Source: Vulcanimicrobiota bacterium
GTDB lineage: Bacteria; Vulcanimicrobiota; Vulcanimicrobiia; Vulcanimicrobiales; Vulcanimicrobiaceae
NCBI GenBank assembly: GCA_027307235.1
Contig: DAHUXH010000008.1
Location: forward strand, 91,224-155,223
Direction: 5' to 3'
DNA: 64,000 bases
The translations under genes and the position numbers were made by a program. The notes below the pieces were generated by a model that was not told the DNA's origin, did not search any database, and saw nothing but the letters and a program-made list of their open reading frames with translations. This document shows positions 5,515 through 49,953 of the stretch, in pieces; position 1 is the stretch's first letter; each line of letters begins with the position of its first letter.

Positions 5515-6204
5515 ATGACTTTCGGCGGCTCACTCCTCGGCGATGTCATCGAGTGGTTCCTCACGCGCGTGGGGGATCGACGCCAGTACAAGCGCAGAGC
5601 CGGCGCCTTCCACATGTGGTGGCTCCCGGAAAACCAGGCGCCGGTGCAGGGCATCGGCATGGAACTCTCGCCCAACGGGATCGTCTTCATCATCAAAGCC
5701 GGCATTCAGGCGCCCGAGTTCAACATCCGCATGCGCATACGCGAGCAGATGCTGCCAGCCCGCGTCAAGCGCGTCCGGTACGACGTCATGGACTATAAAG
5801 GCGAGAAGTTCAACCGCTACGTGTGCGAGCTTCAGGGCATCGCCGCCGACCATTGGGATGCGATCGTCCGTTACGTCAACGACACACCCGAGCCGATCGA
5901 CCGTCGCAAACAGCAGAACCAAGAGATGTCCAACCGCGTCGACGACGCTTATCGTCTGCTGCCGATGGCGATCCAGCAGAAGCTCATCGACCTGCTCGTC
6001 GGCCAGCGCAAGCTCGAAGCGCCCGCACCCGGCCAGACGCCCTTGATCAAGCTTTTTTACGGAGGGCTCGTGAACGTTCCGGGCAAGGGCAAAGCGCACC
6101 GCGTCAACGTCCACAGCCGCATCAAGGTCAACGACGACATGATGGCCTACGACTCACGCTTTTTGGTGACAGAACCCGGCGGCGAAATCATCCAACAATC
6201 GTGA
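5515..6204 (+). CDS. PilZ-like domain protein
   Basis: A 229-residue cytoplasmic protein. RRQYKRRAG (about 21-29) followed after some 24 residues by ELSPNG matches the spacing of a PilZ c-di-GMP motif (RxxxR, then D/NxSxxG), but glutamate replaces the usual D/N. The middle has a beta-rich NIRMRIREQMLPARVKRVRY stretch typical of PilZ barrels. The second half (about 130-229) is helical and unassigned. Its stop codon TGA at 6202 lies in the first bases of a dispersed repeat. The c-di-GMP role is inference; it could equally be a degenerate PilZ acting through protein contacts. Confidence 0.6.
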   Translation: MTFGGSLLGDVIEWFLTRVGDRRQYKRRAGAFHMWWLPENQAPVQGIGMELSPNGIVFIIKAGIQAPEFNIRMRIREQMLPARVKRVRYDVMDYKGEKFNRYVCELQGIAADHWDAIVRYVNDTPEPIDRRKQQNQEMSNRVDDAYRLLPMAIQQKLIDLLVGQRKLEAPAPGQTPLIKLFYGGLVNVPGKGKAHRVNVHSRIKVNDDMMAYDSRFLVTEPGGEIIQQS

Positions 6205-6252
6205 CGGGGGCTGATTTCCGCCAGGCCGTCGTTGCGAAGAGGCTCGTGTACC
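6201..6252 (+). repeat. Lone left arm of the dispersed palindromic repeat (copy A')
   Basis: 52 bases that repeat 6253-6304 almost exactly (GTGACGGGGGCTGATTTCCG onward, with one difference, GGCCGTCG against GGCCTTCG). It has no right arm of its own. The PilZ-like gene's stop codon is its second to fourth bases. It looks like a partial tandem duplication of the adjoining palindrome. Confidence 0.9.
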
Positions 6253-6358
6253 GTGACGGGGGCTGATTTCCGCCAGGCCTTCGTTGCGAAGAGGCTCGTG
6301 TACCGTAGTACACTTCGCCTCTTCGCGCCTCGGCCTGACGAAAATCAGACCCCGTCAC
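6253..6358 (+). repeat. Dispersed palindromic repeat, copy A
   Basis: A 106-bp imperfect palindrome bounded by GTGACGGGG and CCCCGTCAC. The inner part reads CCAGGCC, TTCGTTGCGAAGAGG and GTGTAC, then a CGTA turn, then GTACAC, CCTCTTCGC and GGCCTG. With copies at 6426, 14998 and 33303 it forms one family. Together with copy B it fills the 320-base convergent gap between the PilZ-like gene and the R3H ATPase gene; 6359-6425 holds nothing I recognise. Confidence 0.93.
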
Positions 6359-6425
6359 TAGATCAAGATGGCGCGTTGCTTACTGCTGACGCGCTGTTTT
6401 GCTTTTGGAAGGGGAGAGGCTTGTC

Positions 6426-6525
6426 GGAAGGTTTGATTTTCGTCGGGCCTAGGCGCGGTGAGGCGACGTGTACTGTGGTACACGAGCCTCTCCGCAACGA
6501 CGGCCTGGCGAAAATCAAACCTTCC
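6426..6525 (-). repeat. Dispersed palindromic repeat, copy B
   Basis: A 100-bp palindrome with perfectly paired outer 17 bases (GGAAGGTTTGATTTTCG and its complement). The tip is GTGTAC, TGTG, GTACAC on the + strand. The last base is also the last base of the TAG stop codon of the leftward R3H ATPase gene. Confidence 0.93.
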
Positions 6526-8063
6526 TACTCGGACTTGAAGATTCTTACGCGGCGGTTCGGCTCCAAGCCGGTGCTTCTTGATTGCACTCGGTATTTTTCG
6601 GCGAGTTGGTGTTGTTGACGGCGGACGTACGACGTCTGGGGTGAGAGTTCGATGGCCTTGTTGGTCAACATGACCTGATAGATCGCTTCCTCGGTCTCGC
6701 GCAACGCAATCTCTTCGTTATCGATGGCGCCGAGGTGAAACACGTCGCGCAACGCAGTTTGAATTTGCGTCGTGGTGTTGGTCTTGATCGAGTAGATCGG
6801 CACGTTGTCGGATGCGATCTGCTTGAGTTTCGGCTGCTGCTTGCGTTCGAGTGTCTTGAGCGTCAGCACGACGTCGGCTTCGTCCCACGCGCGAGCGATC
6901 GTCGCGTGGATGCGCAGGTTGTGGACGGCGCGCTCGATCTTGTTGCGCGAAACGCCGTACGGAAAGATCGAGATCGGTTTCTCGCCTTCTTCGACCTCAT
7001 GATGGTCCTCGCCGTACGCCTCGGCGATCTGCGGCATCGATTCCGGAACGGCTTCCTGAACGATCGCCACTTGGCCGGTCGCGGTGCGCTGGCGAATCTC
7101 CGGCTGCGGTTGATAGCCGCGCAGGAGAGCATCGACCACCTCGCCGACGTTCTTGTGAATGGCGAGACGATCGCGGTCGATGATCTCGACGACCACGTCG
7201 AACGTCGGAGGAGCTTTGCGCTCGAGCACGGTCTTGCGCGTGCCGCGGCGGCGCGCTTCCTCGTCGGAAAGTGTGACCGCGCTGATGCCGCCGACCAGAT
7301 CGGAGAGCGTCGGATTCATGAGGAGATTTTCGAGCGTCTGACCGTGCGCGGTCCCGATCAACGTCACGCCGCGTTCGGCGATCGTGCGCGCAGCCACAGC
7401 TTCGGCTTCCGTGCCGATCTCGTCGATCACGATGACCTGCGGCATGTGGTTCTCGACGGCTTCGATCATGACGGCGTGCTGCAGCGCCGGATCGGCGACT
7501 TGCATGCGGCGGGCCGTCCCGATGCCCGGATGCGGAATGTCGCTGTCACCGGCGATTTCGTTCGACGAGTCGACGATGACGACGCGCTTGCGCTCCTCGC
7601 TCAGAATGCGCGCGCACTCGCGCAGCATCGTCGTCTTACCGACGCCCGGGCGGCCGAGCAGGCAGATTGACTGTCCGCTGCGCAGCACGTCGAGCACGAT
7701 GTCGATGGTTCCGTACACGGCGCGGCCCACACGACAGGTCAATCCGACGATCTTGCCGGTGCGATTGCGGATCGCGCTGATGCGATGCAGTGTTTGTTCG
7801 ATACCCGCGCGATTGTCCGCGCCGAACGGTGAGATGCGCGAACTGACGTGGGCGATATCTTCGTTGGTGACCGACGTGTCGCTCAGATAGACAAAATCGT
7901 GCTCGAAACGAGCCTCGGGCGGACGCCCGAGATCGAGCACGACCTCAATGATGGATTCGAGATTGGGGAGTCTTACGAGCGCTTGCCGGATCGGCAGGGG
8001 GAAGATATCGAGGAGTTGACTGAGCTCCCAGCCGGGGGCGATGGATTCCGCCTTGACCGCCAA
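6525..8063 (-). CDS. SpoIIIAA/Ycf45-type AAA ATPase with C-terminal R3H domain
   Basis: A 512-residue protein. An N-terminal helical region precedes a RecA/secretion-type ATPase with Walker A LLGRPGVGKTT, a Walker B ending VIVIDEIGTEAE, and TLIGTAHG. After a linker the C-terminus carries an R3H domain, RRQQHQLAEKY leading to STGLEPNRRVRIF, which binds single-stranded nucleic acid. This architecture is known from cyanobacteria and plastids (Ycf45) and resembles SpoIIIAA of Bacillus, but its cellular job outside sporulation is unclear. Translation probably starts at TTG 8063, preceded by AGAGGG. The start region is divergent from the glycosyltransferase (90-base spacer with an AT-rich tract), and the stop abuts repeat copy B. 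Confidence 0.88.
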   Translation of the reverse strand: MAVKAESIAPGWELSQLLDIFPLPIRQALVRLPNLESIIEVVLDLGRPPEARFEHDFVYLSDTSVTNEDIAHVSSRISPFGADNRAGIEQTLHRISAIRNRTGKIVGLTCRVGRAVYGTIDIVLDVLRSGQSICLLGRPGVGKTTMLRECARILSEERKRVVIVDSSNEIAGDSDIPHPGIGTARRMQVADPALQHAVMIEAVENHMPQVIVIDEIGTEAEAVAARTIAERGVTLIGTAHGQTLENLLMNPTLSDLVGGISAVTLSDEEARRRGTRKTVLERKAPPTFDVVVEIIDRDRLAIHKNVGEVVDALLRGYQPQPEIRQRTATGQVAIVQEAVPESMPQIAEAYGEDHHEVEEGEKPISIFPYGVSRNKIERAVHNLRIHATIARAWDEADVVLTLKTLERKQQPKLKQIASDNVPIYSIKTNTTTQIQTALRDVFHLGAIDNEEIALRETEEAIYQVMLTNKAIELSPQTSYVRRQQHQLAEKYRVQSRSTGLEPNRRVRIFKSE

Positions 8064-12623: not shown

Positions 12624-13708
12624 CGCTGCAGTTCGCGCAAGAAGATGTCGAGGTGCTCGTCGGTATGATCGGCGCGTACAGCCAGACGCAGACGTGACGC
12701 TCCCGGAGGAACGGTGGGCGGACGCACGGCCGGCGCGTAGATGCGCTTCTCCAACAGCGCGCGCGAGAGGTTGAGCGCATGCGTCTCGGTGCCGAGCAGG
12801 ATGGGAACGATCGGTGATCGTTCATCGCCGCACGTCACAGCGCCGACTTCACGCAGACCGCTTCTCATCAGTTGTGACGCTCTGACCAAGCGCGAGCGGC
12901 TTTCGTCTGCTTGGCGCGCGATGGCAAGCGCGACGCGGGCCGCGAGCGCCAACTGCGGCGGCAGCGCGGTGTCGAAGATGAACGTGCGCGCGGTGCTGAT
13001 CAGCAGTTCGATGACGCGCGCGGGACCGGCGACGAAACCGCCGAGCCCGCCCAACGCTTTGGAGAGTGTCCCGAACACGACGATGCGCGGATCGTCGAGT
13101 CCGTGTGCCAATCCGGCGCCTTCACGACCGAACACGCCGAGCGCGTGCGCCTCGTCCAGCAGCAGCACGTCGTCGGGTCCGAGTTGTGCGAGCAGCGCGG
13201 CCGGTTCGACGCGGTCGCCGTCCATGCCGAAGAGCGTCTCACTGACGACCATCGTCGCCGCCGGACGCCTTTCTCGCCCCGGCAGCGCTCCGTGCGGATA
13301 GATGGTGCGCGCGACCTTGGTGAGACGGATGCCGTCGATGAACGAGGCGTGCGTGAGCGCGTCGGACGCAATGGCATCCACGACCGGGGCAAGCGCGGTG
13401 ACGGCCCCGATCGCTGCGAGATAGCCGGACGAGAAGAGCAGCGCGCGCTCGCGCCCGAGCCACGCGGCAAGCTCTTCTTCCAACAACGAGTGTTCCCGGT
13501 GGCGTCCCCCGAGCAGACGCGCGCCACCCGATCCGACCCGGCGCGCGCGTTTGAGCGCCTCGACCACGCGAGGATCGGCGGCCAGTCCGAGATAGTCGTT
13601 GCTTGCGAAGTCGATGACGTTCTCGACCTGATACGCTTGCAGTTCGCGCGTCCGATGCTGCGCCGCGATCTGCGCGAGCCGCTCCTCGATCCGCCCGATA
13701 TAGCTCAC
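12605..13708 (-). CDS. bioF: 8-amino-7-oxononanoate synthase
   Basis: PLP enzyme condensing pimeloyl thioester with alanine. The 367 residues show FASNDYLGLAADPRV, GSGGARLLGGRHREHSLLE, FSSGYLAAIGAV, LLLDEAHALGVFGREGAG and the lysine-bearing VFGTLSKALGGLGGFVAG. These distinguish AONS from the related KBL and ALAS families mainly by context: the gene lies between bioA (4-base overlap) and bioD (19-base overlap). Slightly shorter than E. coli BioF (384), with no missing block evident. Confidence 0.93.
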   Translation of the reverse strand: MSYIGRIEERLAQIAAQHRTRELQAYQVENVIDFASNDYLGLAADPRVVEALKRARRVGSGGARLLGGRHREHSLLEEELAAWLGRERALLFSSGYLAAIGAVTALAPVVDAIASDALTHASFIDGIRLTKVARTIYPHGALPGRERRPAATMVVSETLFGMDGDRVEPAALLAQLGPDDVLLLDEAHALGVFGREGAGLAHGLDDPRIVVFGTLSKALGGLGGFVAGPARVIELLISTARTFIFDTALPPQLALAARVALAIARQADESRSRLVRASQLMRSGLREVGAVTCGDERSPIVPILLGTETHALNLSRALLEKRIYAPAVRPPTVPPGASRLRLAVRADHTDEHLDIFLRELQRCIATS

Positions 13709-14922
13709 TGCGACAACTCTTCCGTGAGCGCGTCGAAGAAGCCGTCGATCTCCGCGGTCGTCGAGGAGAGCGGCGGAACGAGCTGCACCACATCACCGAT
13801 CGGTCGCGTGAAATATCCGCGCTCGTAGAGACCGTTCGCGACCCGCCACGCCGCCGTCGGTGCGCCCGCCGCGTCGAGCACGCCGGCATCGAGTTCGATG
13901 CCGCACATCAGGCCCCGAGCGCGAACTTCACGGACACCGGGATGCTTATCCAGTTCGCGCAGTCGCGCGGCGACGTGTGACGACAGCGCGCCGACGCGCT
14001 CCAAGACGCGTTCTTCCGCAAACAGGTCGAGGGAGGCTAGCGCAGCCGCGCATGCGATCGGGTTTCCCGCGTAGGAATGACCGTGAAAGAAGTGGCGGTG
14101 CTCTGCATGCGCGCCGAGAAACGCATCGTGAACGCGCGCGCGCACGATCGTCGCCGAGAGCGCCAGCGCCCCGCCGGTCAGCCCTTTGCCGGCACAGACG
14201 ACGTCAGGCCGCAGCGCCGTTTGCTCGTACGCGAACATCGTCCCGGTTCGGCCGAAGCCGGTCGCGATCTCGTCGACGATGAGCAGCGGGGTGATGTCGC
14301 GCAATGCGTCGTACCGGTCTGCGGGCACTAGACGCATGCCCGCCGAGGCTTGCACCAGGGGTTCGACGATCACCGCGGCGACGTCCGGATCGTTCACCAC
14401 GCCCGGCGCTTCGTCGAATGAGACGACGTCGAAGGTGATCGCTGAAAAACGCGCCTTGAACACTGCGATGTCCGAGACGCTCATTGCGCCGGCGGTATCG
14501 CCGTGATATGCGTCATGTAATCGGACGAAGCGGGTGCGCTGCGGTTCACCGACGTTCTGCCAATACTGCAGCGACATTTTCAGCGCTGCCTCGACGGCGC
14601 TTGCGCCGTCGCTTGCGAAGAACGCGACGTCGAGCGCGGTCAGCGCACACAAGCGCGAGGCCAAGGTTTCGGCGACCGGATTGGTCGCACCGAGCAGTGT
14701 CGCGTGATCCAGCAGCGCTGCCTGCGCGGCTATCGCGGCGACGATGCGCGGATGCGAATGCCCGTGAATCGTCGTCCAAATCGAACTGACCGCATCGAAT
14801 ACCCGATTGCCGCGGACATCATACAAATAGTTCCCCTCGCCGCGCGTGAACGTGCGCGACGAGCGATCGAACGATGCCGCCTGAGTGAAGGGCAGCCACA
14901 GCGCACTGCGATCCGAAGCCAT
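13705..14922 (-). CDS. bioA: Adenosylmethionine-8-amino-7-oxononanoate aminotransferase
   Basis: Class III aminotransferase using SAM as amino donor. Signatures: LWLPFTQ at the N-terminus (equivalent of the WHPYT motif), DGASAVEAALKMSLQYW, YHGDTAGAMS, LIVDEIATGFGRTGTMFAYE, and the PLP lysine in VCAGKGLTGG. I chose ATG 14922; an in-frame TTG at 14994 would add about 24 residues unlike the family's start. It is the first biotin gene. Pimeloyl-precursor genes (bioC, bioH, bioW or bioI) are not in the window. Repeat copy C lies about 75 bases upstream, between this gene and the HNH gene. Confidence 0.93.
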   Translation of the reverse strand: MASDRSALWLPFTQAASFDRSSRTFTRGEGNYLYDVRGNRVFDAVSSIWTTIHGHSHPRIVAAIAAQAALLDHATLLGATNPVAETLASRLCALTALDVAFFASDGASAVEAALKMSLQYWQNVGEPQRTRFVRLHDAYHGDTAGAMSVSDIAVFKARFSAITFDVVSFDEAPGVVNDPDVAAVIVEPLVQASAGMRLVPADRYDALRDITPLLIVDEIATGFGRTGTMFAYEQTALRPDVVCAGKGLTGGALALSATIVRARVHDAFLGAHAEHRHFFHGHSYAGNPIACAAALASLDLFAEERVLERVGALSSHVAARLRELDKHPGVREVRARGLMCGIELDAGVLDAAGAPTAAWRVANGLYERGYFTRPIGDVVQLVPPLSSTTAEIDGFFDALTEELSQ

Positions 14923-14997
14923 GCGGCCCACGTTCTTCGCGCAGATCGCAACAGAGCCTCGCAAACCGAGGTGAACCTCTCGTTCTACAACCAAGCC

Positions 14998-15105
14998 GCT
15001 AGGAAGCGTTGATTTCCGTCAGGCCGAGGCGCGAAGAGGCGAAGTGTACTACGGTACACGAGCCGCTTCGCAACGAAGGCCTGGCGGAAATCAACGCTTC
15101 CTAGC
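14998..15105 (-). repeat. Dispersed palindromic repeat, copy C
   Basis: A 108-bp palindrome whose outer 21 bases on each side pair perfectly, from GCTAGGAAGCG through TTGATTTCCG. The tip is GTGTAC, TACG, GTACAC on the + strand. The TAG stop codon of the HNH gene (15101-15103) falls inside the outer arm. It separates the HNH gene from the co-oriented biotin operon. Confidence 0.94.
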
Positions 15106-15628
15106 CGATGCGTTCTTCGATGGAGACGTTGTAGAGGAATAGGAACTTGCCCCACTCGTCGGGGAGCGTGTTGCGCTTGATCTGAATCCACGGGATGTAC
15201 TTGGGCTGCTTGGGCTTGCGGCGCAGCGCCATGTTCGCCTCGTCAGGCGTGCGATTGTTCTTGCGGTTGTTGCAGCGCATACATGCCGCCACCAGGTTTT
15301 CCCATGTTGACGGGCCGCCTTTGCTCTTGGGAACGACGTGATCGACCGTCATCAGCTTCTCGCCGTGGAGTCCGCAATACTGGCACATGTGATCGTCGCG
15401 AATGAGGACGTTCTTCTTGGTCAGCGCGACCTTTTGCATCGGGCGCCGGATGTAGTAGAGCATGCGGATGATCGAGGGCATGCGCATGGCGAAGGTCTGC
15501 GCGCCGATCAGCCGGTCGCGATCGTGCACGATCTCCGCTTTCCCGGCGAAAATCAACTTGACGGCGCGCTGAAAACTGGTGATGTTGAGCGCCTCGTAGG
15601 TGAAGTTCAAGACCAGGACTTCCGTCAC
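15101..15628 (-). CDS. HNH endonuclease family protein
   Basis: A 175-residue protein with a beta-rich N-terminus (VLVLNFTYEALNITSFQRAVKLIFAGKAEIV). The HNH zinc-finger nuclease core is C-x2-C in MCQYCGLHGEKLMTVDHVVPKSKGG, then NLVAACMRCNNRKNNRTP. This stand-alone HNH family is widespread in cyanobacteria and many environmental phyla without a proven role; it is not tied to an intron, phage or restriction locus here. I start it at GTG 15628 because GGAGGA sits 8 bases upstream; longer frames lack that support. The stop codon lies in repeat copy C. Confidence 0.88.
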   Translation of the reverse strand: MTEVLVLNFTYEALNITSFQRAVKLIFAGKAEIVHDRDRLIGAQTFAMRMPSIIRMLYYIRRPMQKVALTKKNVLIRDDHMCQYCGLHGEKLMTVDHVVPKSKGGPSTWENLVAACMRCNNRKNNRTPDEANMALRRKPKQPKYIPWIQIKRNTLPDEWGKFLFLYNVSIEERIG

Positions 15629-15692
15629 GGTCGGCGTCCTCCAAGCGTCGTGTGTGCGGTAGCAGCGTCCATTAATGCACGAAAGCGAGGCA

Positions 15693-15980
15693 TCACGTGC
15701 CTCGCTTTCTGACAAAGGTCATGCGGGTTTCGGTTAGCATCTGCGCCATTGCCAACCGTTCATCGGGCCGTAACCTCTCTTTTACCCTCTCGAAGGCAGC
15801 CGACGCGATGTCGATCGCGATCGCCGCGGCCTCGAGGTCCGGCTCGCGGCCTTCCTGATCGGCGAGGTAGGCATGTGCCGCCAGCGCCATCGTCGCGACG
15901 ACTTCGCTTGCAAGCGGTTCGATGGTGGGAACCGCCCCTTGCTCGGCAATCGTCTGGCGCGTCGGTGTCTGCGCACTCAT
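15693..15980 (-). CDS. DUF1844-like small protein
   Basis: 95 residues, soluble, largely helical. The pattern EVVATMALAAHAYLADQEG, AIAIDIASAAFERVKERL, then LRPDERLAMAQMLTETRMTFV matches the DUF1844 layout: a hydrophobic helix, an ID-containing helix, then a terminal helix. The function is unknown. It lies 14 bases downstream of pdxT and is probably co-transcribed with pdxST. The family assignment is from recollected pattern only. Confidence 0.65.
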   Translation of the reverse strand: MSAQTPTRQTIAEQGAVPTIEPLASEVVATMALAAHAYLADQEGREPDLEAAAIAIDIASAAFERVKERLRPDERLAMAQMLTETRMTFVRKRGT

Positions 15981-32046: not shown

Positions 32047-33273
32047 GTGAGCCAGAAGAGACCGGCCAATCTCAAAGAAGATGAGTCGCCACAGCGGATC
32101 GAGCCGACGATGCTCGACAATCCCAACACAGCAATCCGTGACCTACTCGTGGAGGTTGCCCGCTCTTCCAATGAGCTAGGAACCCGCCTTCATCCCATGA
32201 CGGCGGCGAGCCTCGCTGCGCTCGTGCGCATTATGAACGCGTACTACAGCAACCTCATCGAAGGGCATAACACGCTGCCGCGCGATATCGCGTGCGCGCT
32301 CGTCGGTAAACTCTCCGACGTCCCTGAACGCCGAATACTTCAACTCGAAGCCGCGTCACACGTGCGAGTACAGGCGCAGATCGATCAGATGGCGGCCGAA
32401 GGGTCGCTTCCGGAACCCGCGTCGAGCAAATTCATCACCTGGATTCATCGCTCATTCTACGAGAATGCGCCGGAAGAACTGCTCCACGTTCGCGAAAACG
32501 ACCCGGATTATCGTATGCTGCCTGGCGCCTTTCGGCACGAGCGCAAAGAGGATGTTGTCGTTGGCCGGCACCAGCCGCCAACGAGCGTCATGATCGGCCG
32601 ATTCATGCGGTACTTCGAGGAGCGATATCGCTTCGAGCAGATGGGGCCCTCAGATCGGATACTCTCCATTGCCGCTGCGCATCATCGATTCAACTACATC
32701 CACCCCTTCCCCGATGGCAACGGTCGCGTCAGTCGGCTGATGAGCCACGCCATGGCGCATGCAGCCGGTATCGGGTCTCATGGATTGTGGTCCATCTCGC
32801 GAGGGTTAGCGCGCGGGCTTTCCTCGCGCACAGAGTACAAGACAAAACTCGATGAAGCCGACACGCCACGCCGCGGCGAGCTCGATGGTCGCGGAAATCT
32901 CTCCCGTGACGCGCTTGCGCGGTTCACGGAGTGGTTTCTAACGGTTGAGCTTGATCAGATCACGTTCATGGCAAGCCTTTTTGACCTTCAGAAACTTTCC
33001 GAGCGCTTACGTCATTTCGTTGATCGTCACGAACAGCTCAAGCGGGAGTCGTATCTGTTGCTTGACGCCGCACTTACGCGCGGCGAATTCGCTCGCGGAA
33101 TGGCCCCATCGATCACCGGCCTTCCTGAACGCACCTCTCGTCGCCTCTTGGAAGACCTGCTCAAAGAGGAGCTGCTGGCATCCGCAACGCCAAAGGGTCC
33201 GGTGTCGCTGCGCTTCCCGCAACCCCACGCCGAGTGGCTCTTTCCGCGCCTGTTCGATCCTACAGTGACTTGA
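32047..33273 (+). CDS. Fic family protein (AMPylator type), class II
   Basis: 408 residues. The Fic catalytic motif HPFPDGNGRVSR is at 219-230 with the catalytic His intact. An N-terminal inhibitory helix SNLIEG (68-73) matches [ST]xxxE[GN], so this is an auto-inhibited class II Fic. A C-terminal winged-helix-like segment (about 320-400, SITGLPERTSRRLLEDLLKEELL) may bind DNA. Fic proteins usually transfer AMP to protein hydroxyls; the target is unknown. GTG 32047 sits at the predicted transcription start; ATG 32110 is the alternative. It stands alone and converges on gcvPB across repeat copy D. Confidence 0.93.
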   Translation: MSQKRPANLKEDESPQRIEPTMLDNPNTAIRDLLVEVARSSNELGTRLHPMTAASLAALVRIMNAYYSNLIEGHNTLPRDIACALVGKLSDVPERRILQLEAASHVRVQAQIDQMAAEGSLPEPASSKFITWIHRSFYENAPEELLHVRENDPDYRMLPGAFRHERKEDVVVGRHQPPTSVMIGRFMRYFEERYRFEQMGPSDRILSIAAAHHRFNYIHPFPDGNGRVSRLMSHAMAHAAGIGSHGLWSISRGLARGLSSRTEYKTKLDEADTPRRGELDGRGNLSRDALARFTEWFLTVELDQITFMASLFDLQKLSERLRHFVDRHEQLKRESYLLLDAALTRGEFARGMAPSITGLPERTSRRLLEDLLKEELLASATPKGPVSLRFPQPHAEWLFPRLFDPTVT

Positions 33274-33302
33274 AAGAGTCCATTGTCTCAAACCATGACG
33301 CA

Positions 33303-33407
33303 GGGGAAGCCCTGATGTACGTCAGGCCGAGGCGCGGAGAGGCGAAGTGTACTACGGGTACACGAGCCTCTCCGCAACGACGGCCTGGCTTACATCAAGG
33401 CTTCCCC
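33303..33407 (-). repeat. Dispersed palindromic repeat, copy D
   Basis: A 105-bp palindrome with outer arms GGGGAAGCCCTGATGTACG and CTTACATCAAGGCTTCCCC, which pair at 17 of 19 positions. The tip is GTGTAC, TACGG, GTACAC. The last codons and TGA stop (33395-33397) of gcvPB lie inside the right arm. It separates the convergent fic and gcvPB genes. Confidence 0.93.
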
Positions 33408-34900
33408 GGGTGCCAGCGGAGGTCGGGGTGGCGTGCCGCGCGCGTCTCGTCGACGCGACCGACGACAGTGTTCTTCGGCGCGTCGAGAATCGATTGCGGA
33501 TCGGTCTTCGCGGTCGCGACGATCTCGCGCAGCGCCGCGATGAAGACGTCGAGCGTCTCTTTCGATTCCGTCTCGGTCGGTTCGATCATCAGACATTCAG
33601 GCACGATCAGCGGGAAGTACATCGTCGGCGCCATGAAGCCACGATCGAGCAGCGCTTTGGCGATGTCGAGTGCGCGCACGCCGGTCTCTTTTTTGAGTTC
33701 CTGCGCGGAAGCCACGAACTCGTGGCGACAGATCTCGTCGTACGGCGTCGTCAGCACGTCGCGCACGTTCACGCGAATGTAGTTCGCGTTGAGCACGGCA
33801 AGCGCAGAGACTTTCTTGAGGCCCTCGGCTCCGTTGGCGTAGATGTACGCGAGCGCGCGCACCGCGTGCGCGAAGTTCGACCAGAACGAGCGCATCGGAC
33901 CGATCGATTTCGGGCGGTCGAAGTCGAGGGTGAACGTGAGCCGGTCGCTCGGAGCGGTGCTTGCGTCGCCGTTGGAGCGTTGCTTGGCGACGACCACCGG
34001 TGTCGGCAGGTAGTCGATCAGGTGCGCCGCGACGCCGACCGGACCGTGACCCGCGCCGCCGCCGCCGTGCGGGATCGTGAACGTCTTGTGCGTGTTGAGA
34101 TGCATCAGGTCGAAACCCATGTCGCCGGGACGCGCGTTGCCCATCAGCGCGTTGGCGTTGGCTCCGTCGTAATACATCAATCCGCCCGCAGCGTGAACGG
34201 CCGCCGTGATCTCGTGGACGTGATCTTCAAAGAGACCGAGCGTGTTTGGATTGGTCATCATGCACACGGCCGTATCCGGGCCGAGCACCTTCTTGATCTC
34301 ATCGACGCTCACGCGTCCGCGCGCGTCGCTCGGAATCGAGATGACCTTGAATCCGCACATCGCCGCCGACGCGGGATTGGTCCCATGCGCGGTGTCCGGA
34401 ACGATCACTTTGTCGCGGTGGGTCTCGCCGCGATCTTTGAAGTATTTCTTGGCGATGAGCAGCGCCGCGAGTTCGGCGTGCGCGCCTGCCGACGGATTCA
34501 GGCTGAACGCCGCCATGCCGAACAACGATGCAAGCGATCGTTCCAGTTCATACATGACTTGCAGCGCGCCCTGCGAGAGTTCATCCGGCGCGTACGGATG
34601 CAGATCGCGAAAACCCGGAAGGTTCGCCATCGCGTCGTTGATGCGCGGATTGTATTTCATCGTGCAGGAGCCGAGGGGATAGAAGCCCAGATCAATGCCG
34701 AACGTGCGCTGCGACAGGCGTGTGAAGTGACGCACCACATCGAGTTCGCTGTTGTCGGGCAGCGGCAGGTCATCGCGCAGCAATGCCTTGGGCAGAAATG
34801 CGTCGAGCGACGCCCCGGCATCGACGTAACGGTTCGCGCGCCCCTCTTGACCTTCGTCGAAGATGAGCGCGACGCCGGAGTCAGACGCCAGCGGGGACAT
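33395..34900 (-). CDS. gcvPB: Glycine dehydrogenase (decarboxylating) subunit 2
   Basis: C-terminal half of a split P-protein: decarboxylates glycine and passes aminomethyl to GcvH lipoate. 501 residues. The PLP lysine is in LNTHKTFTIPHGGGGAGHGPVG, with FSLNPSAGAHAELAAL, VIVPDTAHGTNPASA and MMTNPNTLGLFE as further signatures. The start overlaps the end of gcvPA by 20 bases. The last three residues before the stop (GKP) are encoded by repeat copy D, so the repeat appears to have replaced or trimmed the natural C-terminus. Confidence 0.96.
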   Translation of the reverse strand: MSPLASDSGVALIFDEGQEGRANRYVDAGASLDAFLPKALLRDDLPLPDNSELDVVRHFTRLSQRTFGIDLGFYPLGSCTMKYNPRINDAMANLPGFRDLHPYAPDELSQGALQVMYELERSLASLFGMAAFSLNPSAGAHAELAALLIAKKYFKDRGETHRDKVIVPDTAHGTNPASAAMCGFKVISIPSDARGRVSVDEIKKVLGPDTAVCMMTNPNTLGLFEDHVHEITAAVHAAGGLMYYDGANANALMGNARPGDMGFDLMHLNTHKTFTIPHGGGGAGHGPVGVAAHLIDYLPTPVVVAKQRSNGDASTAPSDRLTFTLDFDRPKSIGPMRSFWSNFAHAVRALAYIYANGAEGLKKVSALAVLNANYIRVNVRDVLTTPYDEICRHEFVASAQELKKETGVRALDIAKALLDRGFMAPTMYFPLIVPECLMIEPTETESKETLDVFIAALREIVATAKTDPQSILDAPKNTVVGRVDETRAARHPDLRWHPGKP

Positions 34901-47901: not shown

Positions 47902-48639
47902 ATGCCGTTGCGCCTCCTCGGGTTGCTCGGCGCATTGGCGATCGTCCGTCTCTTCGTCACCCGCACAAAAGCGACGGCCGATGCGCCGGTCGCGTCGCGC
48001 GTGCACCCGCTGCGCGAGTATGTCGACGCGTTCATCGCCGCCGGGTTGCTAGCGCTCTTTCTGATCACGTTCGTGATTCGCACCTACTACATACCATCGC
48101 CGTCGATGGCGCCGACGCTGCGTGTGCGCGACGTCTTGCTCGTCGACGAGTTCGCCTATCGCCTGCATGCGCCCCAGGATGGTGACGTCGCCGTCTTCAC
48201 GCCCCCGATCCAGTCGGCCGGGAACGACGCCTTCATCAAGCGCGTGATCGGCGTCCCCGGCGATCGTATTCGCATCCACGACGGCGTCGTGTATCGCAAC
48301 GGAATGGCGCTGGTCGAACCCTATGCCGCCGCCGCCCCGGACTACGAACTCCAAATCAAGGACTACTCGATCTACGTTGACGGCGCACCGCTCGACCCGC
48401 TCCAGGCAAATATCCCGCCCAAAGCCCTCTGGCAAGCGCCGGACCGCATTCCGCAGGGTTTCTACTTCATGCTGGGCGACAACCGTGATGTCTCCGACGA
48501 CTCTCACGTCTGGGGATTCGCCCAGCTCACGGGGAACTTCGTCGCCGGACCGCTCGTACATAGCACGGCGAAGGCACACTTCGTCGGCCGCGCATTCCTC
48601 GTGTTCTGGCCGTTTCGGCGGCTGCACATACTCGATTAG
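47902..48639 (+). CDS. lepB: Signal peptidase I, first copy
   Basis: 245 residues. A hydrophobic N-terminus and a second membrane segment (VDAFIAAGLLALFLITFVIRTYYI) precede the catalytic serine in PSPSMAPTL (S68) and the lysine in FIKRVIGVPGD (K113). LGDNRDVSDDSHVWGF is the C-terminal signature. It removes signal peptides on the outer face of the membrane. First of three tandem lepB genes, 12 bases before the second. An insertion of about 40 residues between IGVPGD and the LGDNRD box is shared with the second copy. Confidence 0.95.
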   Translation: MPLRLLGLLGALAIVRLFVTRTKATADAPVASRVHPLREYVDAFIAAGLLALFLITFVIRTYYIPSPSMAPTLRVRDVLLVDEFAYRLHAPQDGDVAVFTPPIQSAGNDAFIKRVIGVPGDRIRIHDGVVYRNGMALVEPYAAAAPDYELQIKDYSIYVDGAPLDPLQANIPPKALWQAPDRIPQGFYFMLGDNRDVSDDSHVWGFAQLTGNFVAGPLVHSTAKAHFVGRAFLVFWPFRRLHILD

Positions 48640-48651
48640 CATAAGGAAACG

Positions 48652-49389
48652 ATGACTCCGCAACTCTTACTGACCTTCGTTGCCGTCTTCGCCGTCGCGA
48701 GAATCGCGCTCGTCGTGCAGCGCGTCGCTGCCGGCGGCACGCGCACTCGCAGCCTCACTGTCGCGCGCGAATGGCTCGACACGTTCATCTTCGCCGGATT
48801 GGGCGCGTGGCTGTTGATCACGTTCGTCGGCCGGACGTACTACATTCCGTCAGGCTCGATGATCCCGACGCTCGAAGTGCATGACGTGCTGCTGGTCGAC
48901 AAGGTGGAGTTTCGTTTTCGTCAACCGCGCTACGGCGACATCGTCGTATTTCCGCCGCCGATTCCGTCACCGGATGACTTCATCAAGCGCGTGATCGGCG
49001 TCCCCGGCGACACGCTGCGGATCAAGAACGGCATCGTCTACCGGAACGGCGTCGCGCTCGCGGAAGACTACATCAATCAGAAGCCGCAGTATGACATGGA
49101 GATTCGCGACTACGGCATTTGGGTGAACGACGGATTCGGATGGCACAAAGTCGATCCGGCCGACGGAAACATTCCGCCCAAGAGCATGTGGACGGCGCCC
49201 AACCGCATACCGGCGAACTGCTACTTCATGATGGGCGACAACCGCAATGACTCGGTCGATTCTCACATGTGGGGTTTCGCGCAGGACACCGGCACATTCG
49301 CGACCGGACCGCTCGCCGGAAAGCCCGCATGGTTCACCGGGCGCGCCTTCACGATCTTCTGGCCGATCAGCCACGCGCACTTGCTGTAA
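48652..49389 (+). CDS. lepB: Signal peptidase I, second copy
   Basis: 245 residues and closely similar in layout to the first copy: LDTFIFAGLGAWLLITFVGRTYYIPSGSMIPTL with Ser69, FIKRVIGVPGDTLRI with Lys112, MMGDNRNDSVDSHMWGF. The same long insertion before the last box (DYGIWVNDGFGWHKV) is present. Likely a tandem duplication of the preceding gene; the classical PSGSM motif is better preserved here. Probably co-transcribed with rplS and the first copy. Confidence 0.95.
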   Translation: MTPQLLLTFVAVFAVARIALVVQRVAAGGTRTRSLTVAREWLDTFIFAGLGAWLLITFVGRTYYIPSGSMIPTLEVHDVLLVDKVEFRFRQPRYGDIVVFPPPIPSPDDFIKRVIGVPGDTLRIKNGIVYRNGVALAEDYINQKPQYDMEIRDYGIWVNDGFGWHKVDPADGNIPPKSMWTAPNRIPANCYFMMGDNRNDSVDSHMWGFAQDTGTFATGPLAGKPAWFTGRAFTIFWPISHAHLL

Positions 49390-49443
49390 TTCCGAAGGCT
49401 CGTCCTTAGGATAGCGGCGCGCGCTCGTCGAACGGAAGCGCTC

Positions 49444-49953
49444 GTGCCTCGGATCTCGTCGTTGCGATCGGTCGCGAGTCTCGCGCTGCAGGTCACCGTC
49501 CTGCTGGCGCTGGTTGCCGCGTTCTTCTTCCGCGCACCGCAAGTCTCAGGTCTCTCGATGTCGCCGCAGATAGCGCCGGGAGAATTCGTGCTCATCGACA
49601 CGCTGACGTATCGCTTTCGCGCGCCTCAGCGCGGCGACATCATCGCCTTTCGCCATGACGGCGACGAACCCGAGACGTTCATCAAGCGGGTTATCGGACT
49701 GGGCGGTGATCGCGTGCGCATCGAGCGCGGTACCGTCTTCGTCAACGGCGCGCGTCTCGATGAATCGTACGTGCGCTATCCCGACACGCGCACGTTCGCG
49801 GAAATCACCGTTCCGGCGGGCGATCTGTACGTGCTCGGCGACAATCGCGCGCAGAGCGACGACTCGCGCTTCTTCGGCACCATCGACCGCAACCGCGTCA
49901 TCGGGCGCGCCGTCGCGGCGGTCTGGCCGCTCGACCGTTTCGGCACGTTGTGA
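49444..49953 (+). CDS. lepB: Signal peptidase I, third copy (short form)
   Basis: 169 residues from GTG 49444. It has a single N-terminal membrane segment, FRAPQVSGLSMSPQI with the serine (S38), TFIKRVIGLGGDRVRI with the lysine (K81) and VLGDNRAQSDDSRFFGTI. It lacks the insertion found in the other two and resembles Bacillus SipS-type enzymes. The stop overlaps the rbgA start (GTGA). A TAGGAT hexamer at about 49408 could be an internal promoter. Confidence 0.93.
   Translation: MPRISSLRSVASLALQVTVLLALVAAFFFRAPQVSGLSMSPQIAPGEFVLIDTLTYRFRAPQRGDIIAFRHDGDEPETFIKRVIGLGGDRVRIERGTVFVNGARLDESYVRYPDTRTFAEITVPAGDLYVLGDNRAQSDDSRFFGTIDRNRVIGRAVAAVWPLDRFGTL

Follow-up and report, generated by a model that had tools for sequence, protein, structure and literature searches.

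What does a long palindrome do at the stop codon of a gene, and on which strand would it do so? The question is raised by the 64,000-nucleotide stretch of Vulcanimicrobiota bacterium contig DAHUXH010000008.1 (hereafter the window; its positions 5,515 to 6,525 are shown above), in which a sequence-only reading had noticed four palindromes and a half copy at the stop codons of neighbouring genes, all in the same orientation relative to the gene. It had proposed either an element that spreads at gene ends or a structured 3′-UTR/terminator module. All five lie where that reading had placed them, as judged from the sequence, from the coordinates given by a covariance model built from 32 copies (R1) and from a chance scan (Table 1), and the four stop codons are as described, the first being that at the half copy. 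The chance scan, for inverted repeats with 24-nt arms of at least 83% complementarity spaced 48-71 nt apart, returned exactly these four places in the window, against one place in 50 first-order Markov windows. Pfam domains bear out the R3H, HNH and glycine dehydrogenase labels given to the genes, while the gene labelled PilZ-like has no Pfam match at E 1e-5. Three of the four palindromes are indeed in convergent gaps, the gene convergent to gcvPB (32047-33273) encoding a Fic/DOC family protein (PF02661), and the fourth separates the HNH gene from the next gene, 13705-14994, which is co-directional with it and which we take to be bioA-like. The full copy behind the half copy begins 49 nt beyond the stop that the half copy carries, and at gcvPB the element arm itself encodes the final three codons and the stop (GKP-stop). 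Across the window Rfam gave no match at the gathering threshold, positions 6150-6600 returning just sub-threshold microRNA models (E 0.01-0.06), and similar DNA was not found in plasmid and phage records. Direct 52-bp duplications of the left arm just before the full copy, at 6200-6303 of the window and at L003 and L008, are the pattern that replication slippage at a hairpin would give.

Table 1. Copies of the element in the window and the stop codons they touch
Feature	Position	Strand	Support
Half copy (left arm as far as the tip, abuts the full copy)	6200..6251	+	98% identical to 6252-6303
Full element, in the sense direction of gene 5515-6204 (+)	6253..6360	+	R1, 114.9 bits
Full element on the stop of the R3H-domain ATPase gene 6525-8063 (-)	6421..6531	-	R1, 111.1 bits
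Full element on the stop of the HNH gene 15101-15715 (-)	14997..15107	-	R1, 120.8 bits
Full element on the stop of gcvPB 33395-34900 (-)	33300..33411	-	R1, 113.6 bits
Stop TGA of gene 5515-6204, carried by the half copy	6202..6204	+	sequence
Stop TAG of the R3H-domain ATPase gene	6525..6527	-	sequence
Stop TAG of the HNH gene	15101..15103	-	sequence
Stop TGA of gcvPB, within the element arm	33395..33397	-	sequence

The genome to which the window belongs (G000; 2.41 Mb in 20 contigs, 96.6% completeness) has an R3H-domain ATPase whose nearest relatives come from Candidatus Eremiobacterota. With 150 of 1774 candidates scored, so that weaker copies may be missed, R1 finds 69 full-length copies at 92 bits or more in this genome and about eight partial ones, the other rows being the same palindromes on the opposite strand; a DNA search with 40 of 73 candidates scored gave 55 matches, some of which were partial or lay on the second strand. 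Several places show left-half copies in tandem or copies of the core alone. Under strict filters, R1 matches 67 of the 103 genomes of the order, and a second covariance model (R2), derived from 89 antisense-strand copies, matches 78 of these 103 and 83 of the 149 genomes of the phylum, leaving 66 phylum genomes without an R2 match and many others with one copy. Five of the R2-positive genomes lie outside the order, namely G138 and four members of the distant family f16. G138 has a longer relative, at L301 and L305, in which two of these core motifs seem to be nested; its end at L301 reads CTAGGGCCTGTTGACATT.

The sequence-only reading had named random placement with respect to stop codons, or mixed orientation, across the genome as what would refute it. 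The genome-wide copies show neither random placement nor an even mix of orientations. In an open-frame test (frames of at least 100 codons), the stop of a sense-direction gene falls within the first 22 element positions in 54 of the 69 copies of G000 and in 64 of 83 copies from relatives, 10 of 93 relatives having been dropped for short flanks. The stops of G000 stand mostly at model positions 0-7, and in eight copies at position 16, where the TGA is that of CTGATTT. The mirror test at the far end gives 23 of 69 in G000, 19 of them having both stops, and 19 of 83 in relatives, 15 having both. Sense-only to antisense-only placements accordingly number 35:4 in G000 and 49:4 in relatives, so that the common orientation noted in the window is a strong bias throughout the genome, to which four of the 69 own copies run counter. 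Genes were also called with a purpose-made codon-usage caller trained on the fetched stretches of G000. No called gene contains any of the 69 elements. Among the 56 copies that have genes on both sides and a called sense gene immediately upstream (the other 13 were excluded), 50 stops lie at most 17 nt from the element, where uniform placement within the gap predicts 16.7 and 20000 simulation runs reached at most 31.

The kind of gene end matters as well. Ends with an element are convergent in 36 cases and tandem in 18, against 87 and 222 for ends without (odds ratio 5.1, p 1e-7), and the tandem gaps have a median length of 208 nt with an element and 13 nt without; because these gaps are long, the element-bearing tandem ends look like borders of transcription units. 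The upstream proteins, 30 of the 50 called ones having been scanned, include Rho, RpoD, ribosomal proteins S15 and S10, a FlgE-type hook protein, an ammonium transporter and pyruvate dehydrogenase acetyltransferase, together with some that fall in no family, and a separate check confirmed NusG and a glutamate dehydrogenase-type protein at element ends. Among the relatives, the element stands at the 3′ end of a tRNA gene in five of 27 loci scanned (L133, L232, L234, L254, L258), and by eye it lies directly behind a hairpin with a T-run at L121 and L237. Since elements occur at tRNA 3′ ends and behind such hairpins, a stop codon as such is not required.

Comparison of orthologous gene ends indicates that the family has been both gained and kept, since some of these ends are empty and others share the element. 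The gcvPB gene was present in 54 of 60 genomes surveyed, and in the 30 loci scanned with R1 its end carries the element in G000 alone. By the same model the ends of the HNH gene in five relatives, and of the R3H gene wherever the contig continues (L031-L033, L035, L036), are without it. Conversely, the element is common to the orthologous ends, among others, of rpoD in G000 and G103, of nusG and a DUF2203 gene in G000 and G015, and of rpsD in G016, G103 and G113, and the glutamate dehydrogenase-type gene has it at orthologous ends across genera. The cores at such shared ends are 0.63-0.80 identical against 0.66-0.73 at unrelated sites, that is, little or no more alike. The earlier proposal of an element that spreads at gene ends has support in the 69 copies and the empty orthologous ends.

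The palindrome, which is imperfect, forms a stem of about 104 nt in a family length of about 105 nt, and this length is fixed: whether a copy comes from G000 or from a relative, its stem ends at one and the same column, pairing beyond columns 4-5 being at background level. The shared inner core seen in the window is real, and the sharing reaches further out than had been described, the arm positions GGAAGC and TGATTT being common to most copies. Otherwise the outer arms vary between copies yet remain mostly complementary; across nine outer pairs of the A2 alignment (32 copies) there are 3-17 two-sided changes, 0-3 one-sided changes and 0-6 broken or gapped pairs, whereas most core pairs are nearly invariant. 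Between orthologous copies within a genus, one set of six pairwise comparisons gave 20 stem changes on both sides, 23 one-sided and nine broken, and a second set of three comparisons gave five, nine and one; counts from genus g24 were left out, being inflated by a shifted alignment of L132. Two internal loops with unequal sides are conserved across the order. The larger is replaced by straight pairing in 0 of 69 own and 0 of 93 relative copies and retains CGTTG or CGTCG in 67 of 69 and 90 of 93, and the loops are also kept in five orthologous single copies of genus g24. Two simpler accounts of the arms were considered. The first, prompted by L237, where a T-run has a matching A-run, and by the tRNA cases, derives the outer arm from the native flank by inverted copying; it was rejected as a general rule because most own arms share GGAAGC and TGATTT and because the end column of the stem is fixed. 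Nor was self-correction of the palindrome accepted as the only reason for the symmetry of the arms, given that the core loops persist.

The mismatches within this stem distinguish its strands. On the gene-sense strand they recur as C.A, A.C, U.C and C.U, and on the other strand as G.U and G.A. Sense U.C, which is antisense G.A, outnumbers the opposite kind by 156 to 13 in relatives and by 48 to 14 in own copies, and sense A.C, which is antisense G.U, does so by 110 to 57 in relatives once three columns rich in A.C/C.A are excluded; in G000, with two columns excluded, the latter count is 41 to 29 and not significant (p 0.19), such p-values being rough because the sequences in one genome are not independent. 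When folded as RNA, the antisense strand is the more stable in 63 of 69 own and 90 of 93 relative copies. Its tip in G000 is C(UACG)G, a UNCG tetraloop, in 42 of 69 copies; among the loop types listed for the relatives, only 16 of 93 copies show UNCG. One loop pair exchanges C.A for A.G between genera, which we read as a tandem G.A motif. We take it as well supported that the strand which folds better is the one antisense to the abutted gene, a point beyond the reach of the sequence-only reading. Single-stranded DNA hairpins would give the same preference for G.T and G.A, which counts against reading the molecule as RNA; RNA nevertheless seems to us the likely one.

We tentatively propose a model for the element that fits the placement, the orientation bias, the fixed stem length, the covarying arms, the conserved loops and the strand preference of the mismatches. 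The palindrome would reach gene ends as a non-autonomous mobile element of MITE-like kind and would then be retained for its structure. In RNA coming from the far side of the gene the antisense-strand hairpin would form, and it may act as a barrier at the border between transcription units, stopping or trimming the RNA that enters from the gene's 3′ side and thereby shielding the gene. Boundary function is favoured because the element lies between the stop and the neighbour's territory and because it folds best on RNA of the opposite direction; at the 18 of 54 ends where the next gene is co-directional, the antisense RNA would need a further source, which speaks against it. So do the disagreeing orientation readouts in f16, the lack of a clear deficit of opposite-direction terminators at element ends, both detailed below, and the phylum genomes with no match or one copy. 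In short, we tentatively read the element as a mobile-derived gene-end hairpin that, to go by its position and fold, probably serves as a boundary against antisense or convergent transcription. A more sweeping form of the model, in which a phylum-wide class of gene borders consists of structured antisense RNA of fixed length installed directionally at stops and tRNA 3′ ends, insulating genes against antisense and convergent transcription and having its arms re-made to fit the local end, strikes us as unlikely.

The main rival is a purely selfish one, in which a non-autonomous mobile palindrome of MITE/REP-like kind moves as a folded single strand, targets TAG or CTAG stops directionally and leaves functionless copies; we take it as a serious possibility that falls short of an even chance. 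In its favour are the 69 copies in one genome, the core identity of 0.89 within G000 against 0.67 between genomes, the empty ends of the gcvPB, HNH and R3H genes, and the copies of three f16 genomes (G145, G146, G148), which are near-identical and span 157-160 bp from one matched end to the other in 19 of 20 cases; of 25 left junctions 18 read CTAG, and of 25 right junctions 21. It is in these genomes that the traits of a MITE are clearest, namely terminal inverted repeats, lack of coding capacity and multiple near-identical copies; their loci (L298-L327) form two subfamilies with different inverted ends and a common core, whereas in G000 the inverted ends differ between copies. For orientation in f16 two readouts disagree: the gene caller gives a sense stop at seven and an antisense stop at three of 25 loci, and the open-frame scan finds a sense TAG at the left end in 11 and an antisense stop at the right end in 13 of 20.

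Target choice offers the selfish palindrome further support, together with difficulties. TAG ends 30 of the 50 genes with an element and 107 of the 379 others (p 1.6e-5), and in the 442 kb of fetched G000 stretches CTAG is about 7.5-fold avoided outside elements, with 198 sites seen and 1488 expected, of which 42 are at stops and 53 intergenic. A CTAG or TAG target would favour gene ends; the remaining 103 sites, however, lie inside genes, where no element was found, and a palindromic target alone leaves the orientation unexplained. The two transposase families searched for in G000 offer no mobiliser either. It has no Y1 transposase/RAYT (PF01797), which is found in four of the 103 genomes of the order, and no IS630-type transposase (DDE_3, PF13358), for which reasons a RAYT/REP origin and an IS630/TA-target origin were both rejected. 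In G145, which has 33 matches, one f16 end type forms 12 pairs at the miniature distance with seven of 31 ends unpaired, no longer element with the same ends as one f16 subfamily was found, and the sole DDE_3 locus lacks the end motifs of the element. Target duplications of at least 3 nt are likewise absent from the own copies: equal 3-mers flank 0-2 of the 69, depending on which of eight boundaries is taken. Finally, dead copies would lose their loops, so the retention of these in all or nearly all copies, and in the orthologous single copies of genus g24, counts against functionless copies.

A sense-strand hairpin in the 3′-UTR, guarding the mRNA from 3′ exonucleases or slowing ribosomes at the stop as for YPAL and E. 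coli REPs, would suit an element whose place is the stop codon and whose direction is that of the gene, and REPs within 15 nt of a stop are cited in a passage of PMC12306157 as stalling ribosomes. The mRNA would contain the hairpin wherever a terminator follows. Canonical terminators in the gene's direction lie beyond the element at six of 15 tandem and six of 35 convergent ends, against nine of 268 and eight of 99 at ends without an element; for terminators pointing the other way, ends with an element show no clear deficit (tandem, 0 of 15 with and nine of 268 without; convergent, four of 35 and nine of 99). Yet the sense strand folds worse and bears recurrent U.C and C.A mismatches, and tRNA genes also have elements behind them. 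This makes the sense-strand hairpin quite improbable, and of the structured 3′-UTR/terminator module suggested from the window the structure has support, in its covarying arms and conserved loops, whereas its reading as a sense 3′-UTR hairpin is disfavoured because the antisense strand folds better. That the element is simply an intrinsic terminator whose hairpin happens to be unusually long, the remaining part of that suggestion, is hardly credible despite its location at transcription-unit ends, because a U-tract is absent on the sense side (T fraction 0.15-0.38 per position over 30 nt from the 3′ edge, without a run) and likewise on the antisense side, because separate canonical terminators stand near some elements, and because the conserved internal loops are dispensable for termination.

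Loss of Rho as the cause of the hairpins was also considered and rejected, G000 having Rho; the end of its rho gene itself carries the element (C12:203302; L165, G000:C12:202027-203307). At the cut used, 12 of the 103 genomes of the order have no Rho match, among them the element-bearing G015 and G016.

Among known elements, REPs and YPAL (Yersinia palindromic sequence, RU-2) come nearest, though defining features of theirs that were tested are lacking here. YPAL reportedly inserts just downstream of stop codons, a proximity that the present family shares both in G000 and in its relatives. It is also alike in being a repeated intergenic palindrome with empty and filled sites between species, and passages of PMC2229807 give it a length of about 168 bp, target duplications of 3-26 bp and targets that span or adjoin dyad symmetry; PMC2267715 counts it among the stem-loop families. 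In contrast, the present element has a 104-nt stem, no 3-26 bp duplication in the own copies, covarying arms, an antisense-strand fold and an order-wide range. REPs, according to PMC3733652, mostly follow coding regions and lie between genes that converge or run in the same direction, as does our palindrome; they are described there as 20-40 bp long with a GTAG or CGTC tag, the GTAG types accompanying RAYT transposases, whereas the present element is about three to five times longer, shows no GTAG or CGTC end common to the copies of the alignment and occurs in a genome without Y1 transposase. ERIC, NEMIS/Correia, RUP and other bacterial MITEs mostly have TA ends and target duplications by the account in portions of PMC2229807, which also shows ERIC, NEMIS/Correia and RUP to resemble our family as non-coding long stem-loops of about 100-200 bp that spread within lineages; they differ from it in that stop-codon placement in a preferred orientation and covarying arms are found here. 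Intrinsic terminators share with it a hairpin that ends transcription units, and are unlike it in that the element combines a missing U-tract with conserved internal loops and a fixed length of about 104 nt. None of the papers listed by a literature search describes such an element in this phylum, which is weak evidence of absence given that subscription journals were poorly covered.

If the antisense reading is true, the family would represent dedicated structural punctuation at gene borders, spread in a mobile-like manner and kept by selection, in a host phylum that is little studied at the molecular level. Whether stop-codon palindromes such as REP and YPAL act in the sense mRNA, in antisense RNA or as DNA is an old question, which becomes directly testable here because the mismatches distinguish the strands; the family provides a clean case in which the arms of a palindrome change together while its asymmetric core stays. 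Elsewhere in the window, three tandem stretches at 48226-49769 are 62-76% identical and encode FIKRVIGVPGD-like motifs, by which we presume them to be tandem signal peptidase I genes.
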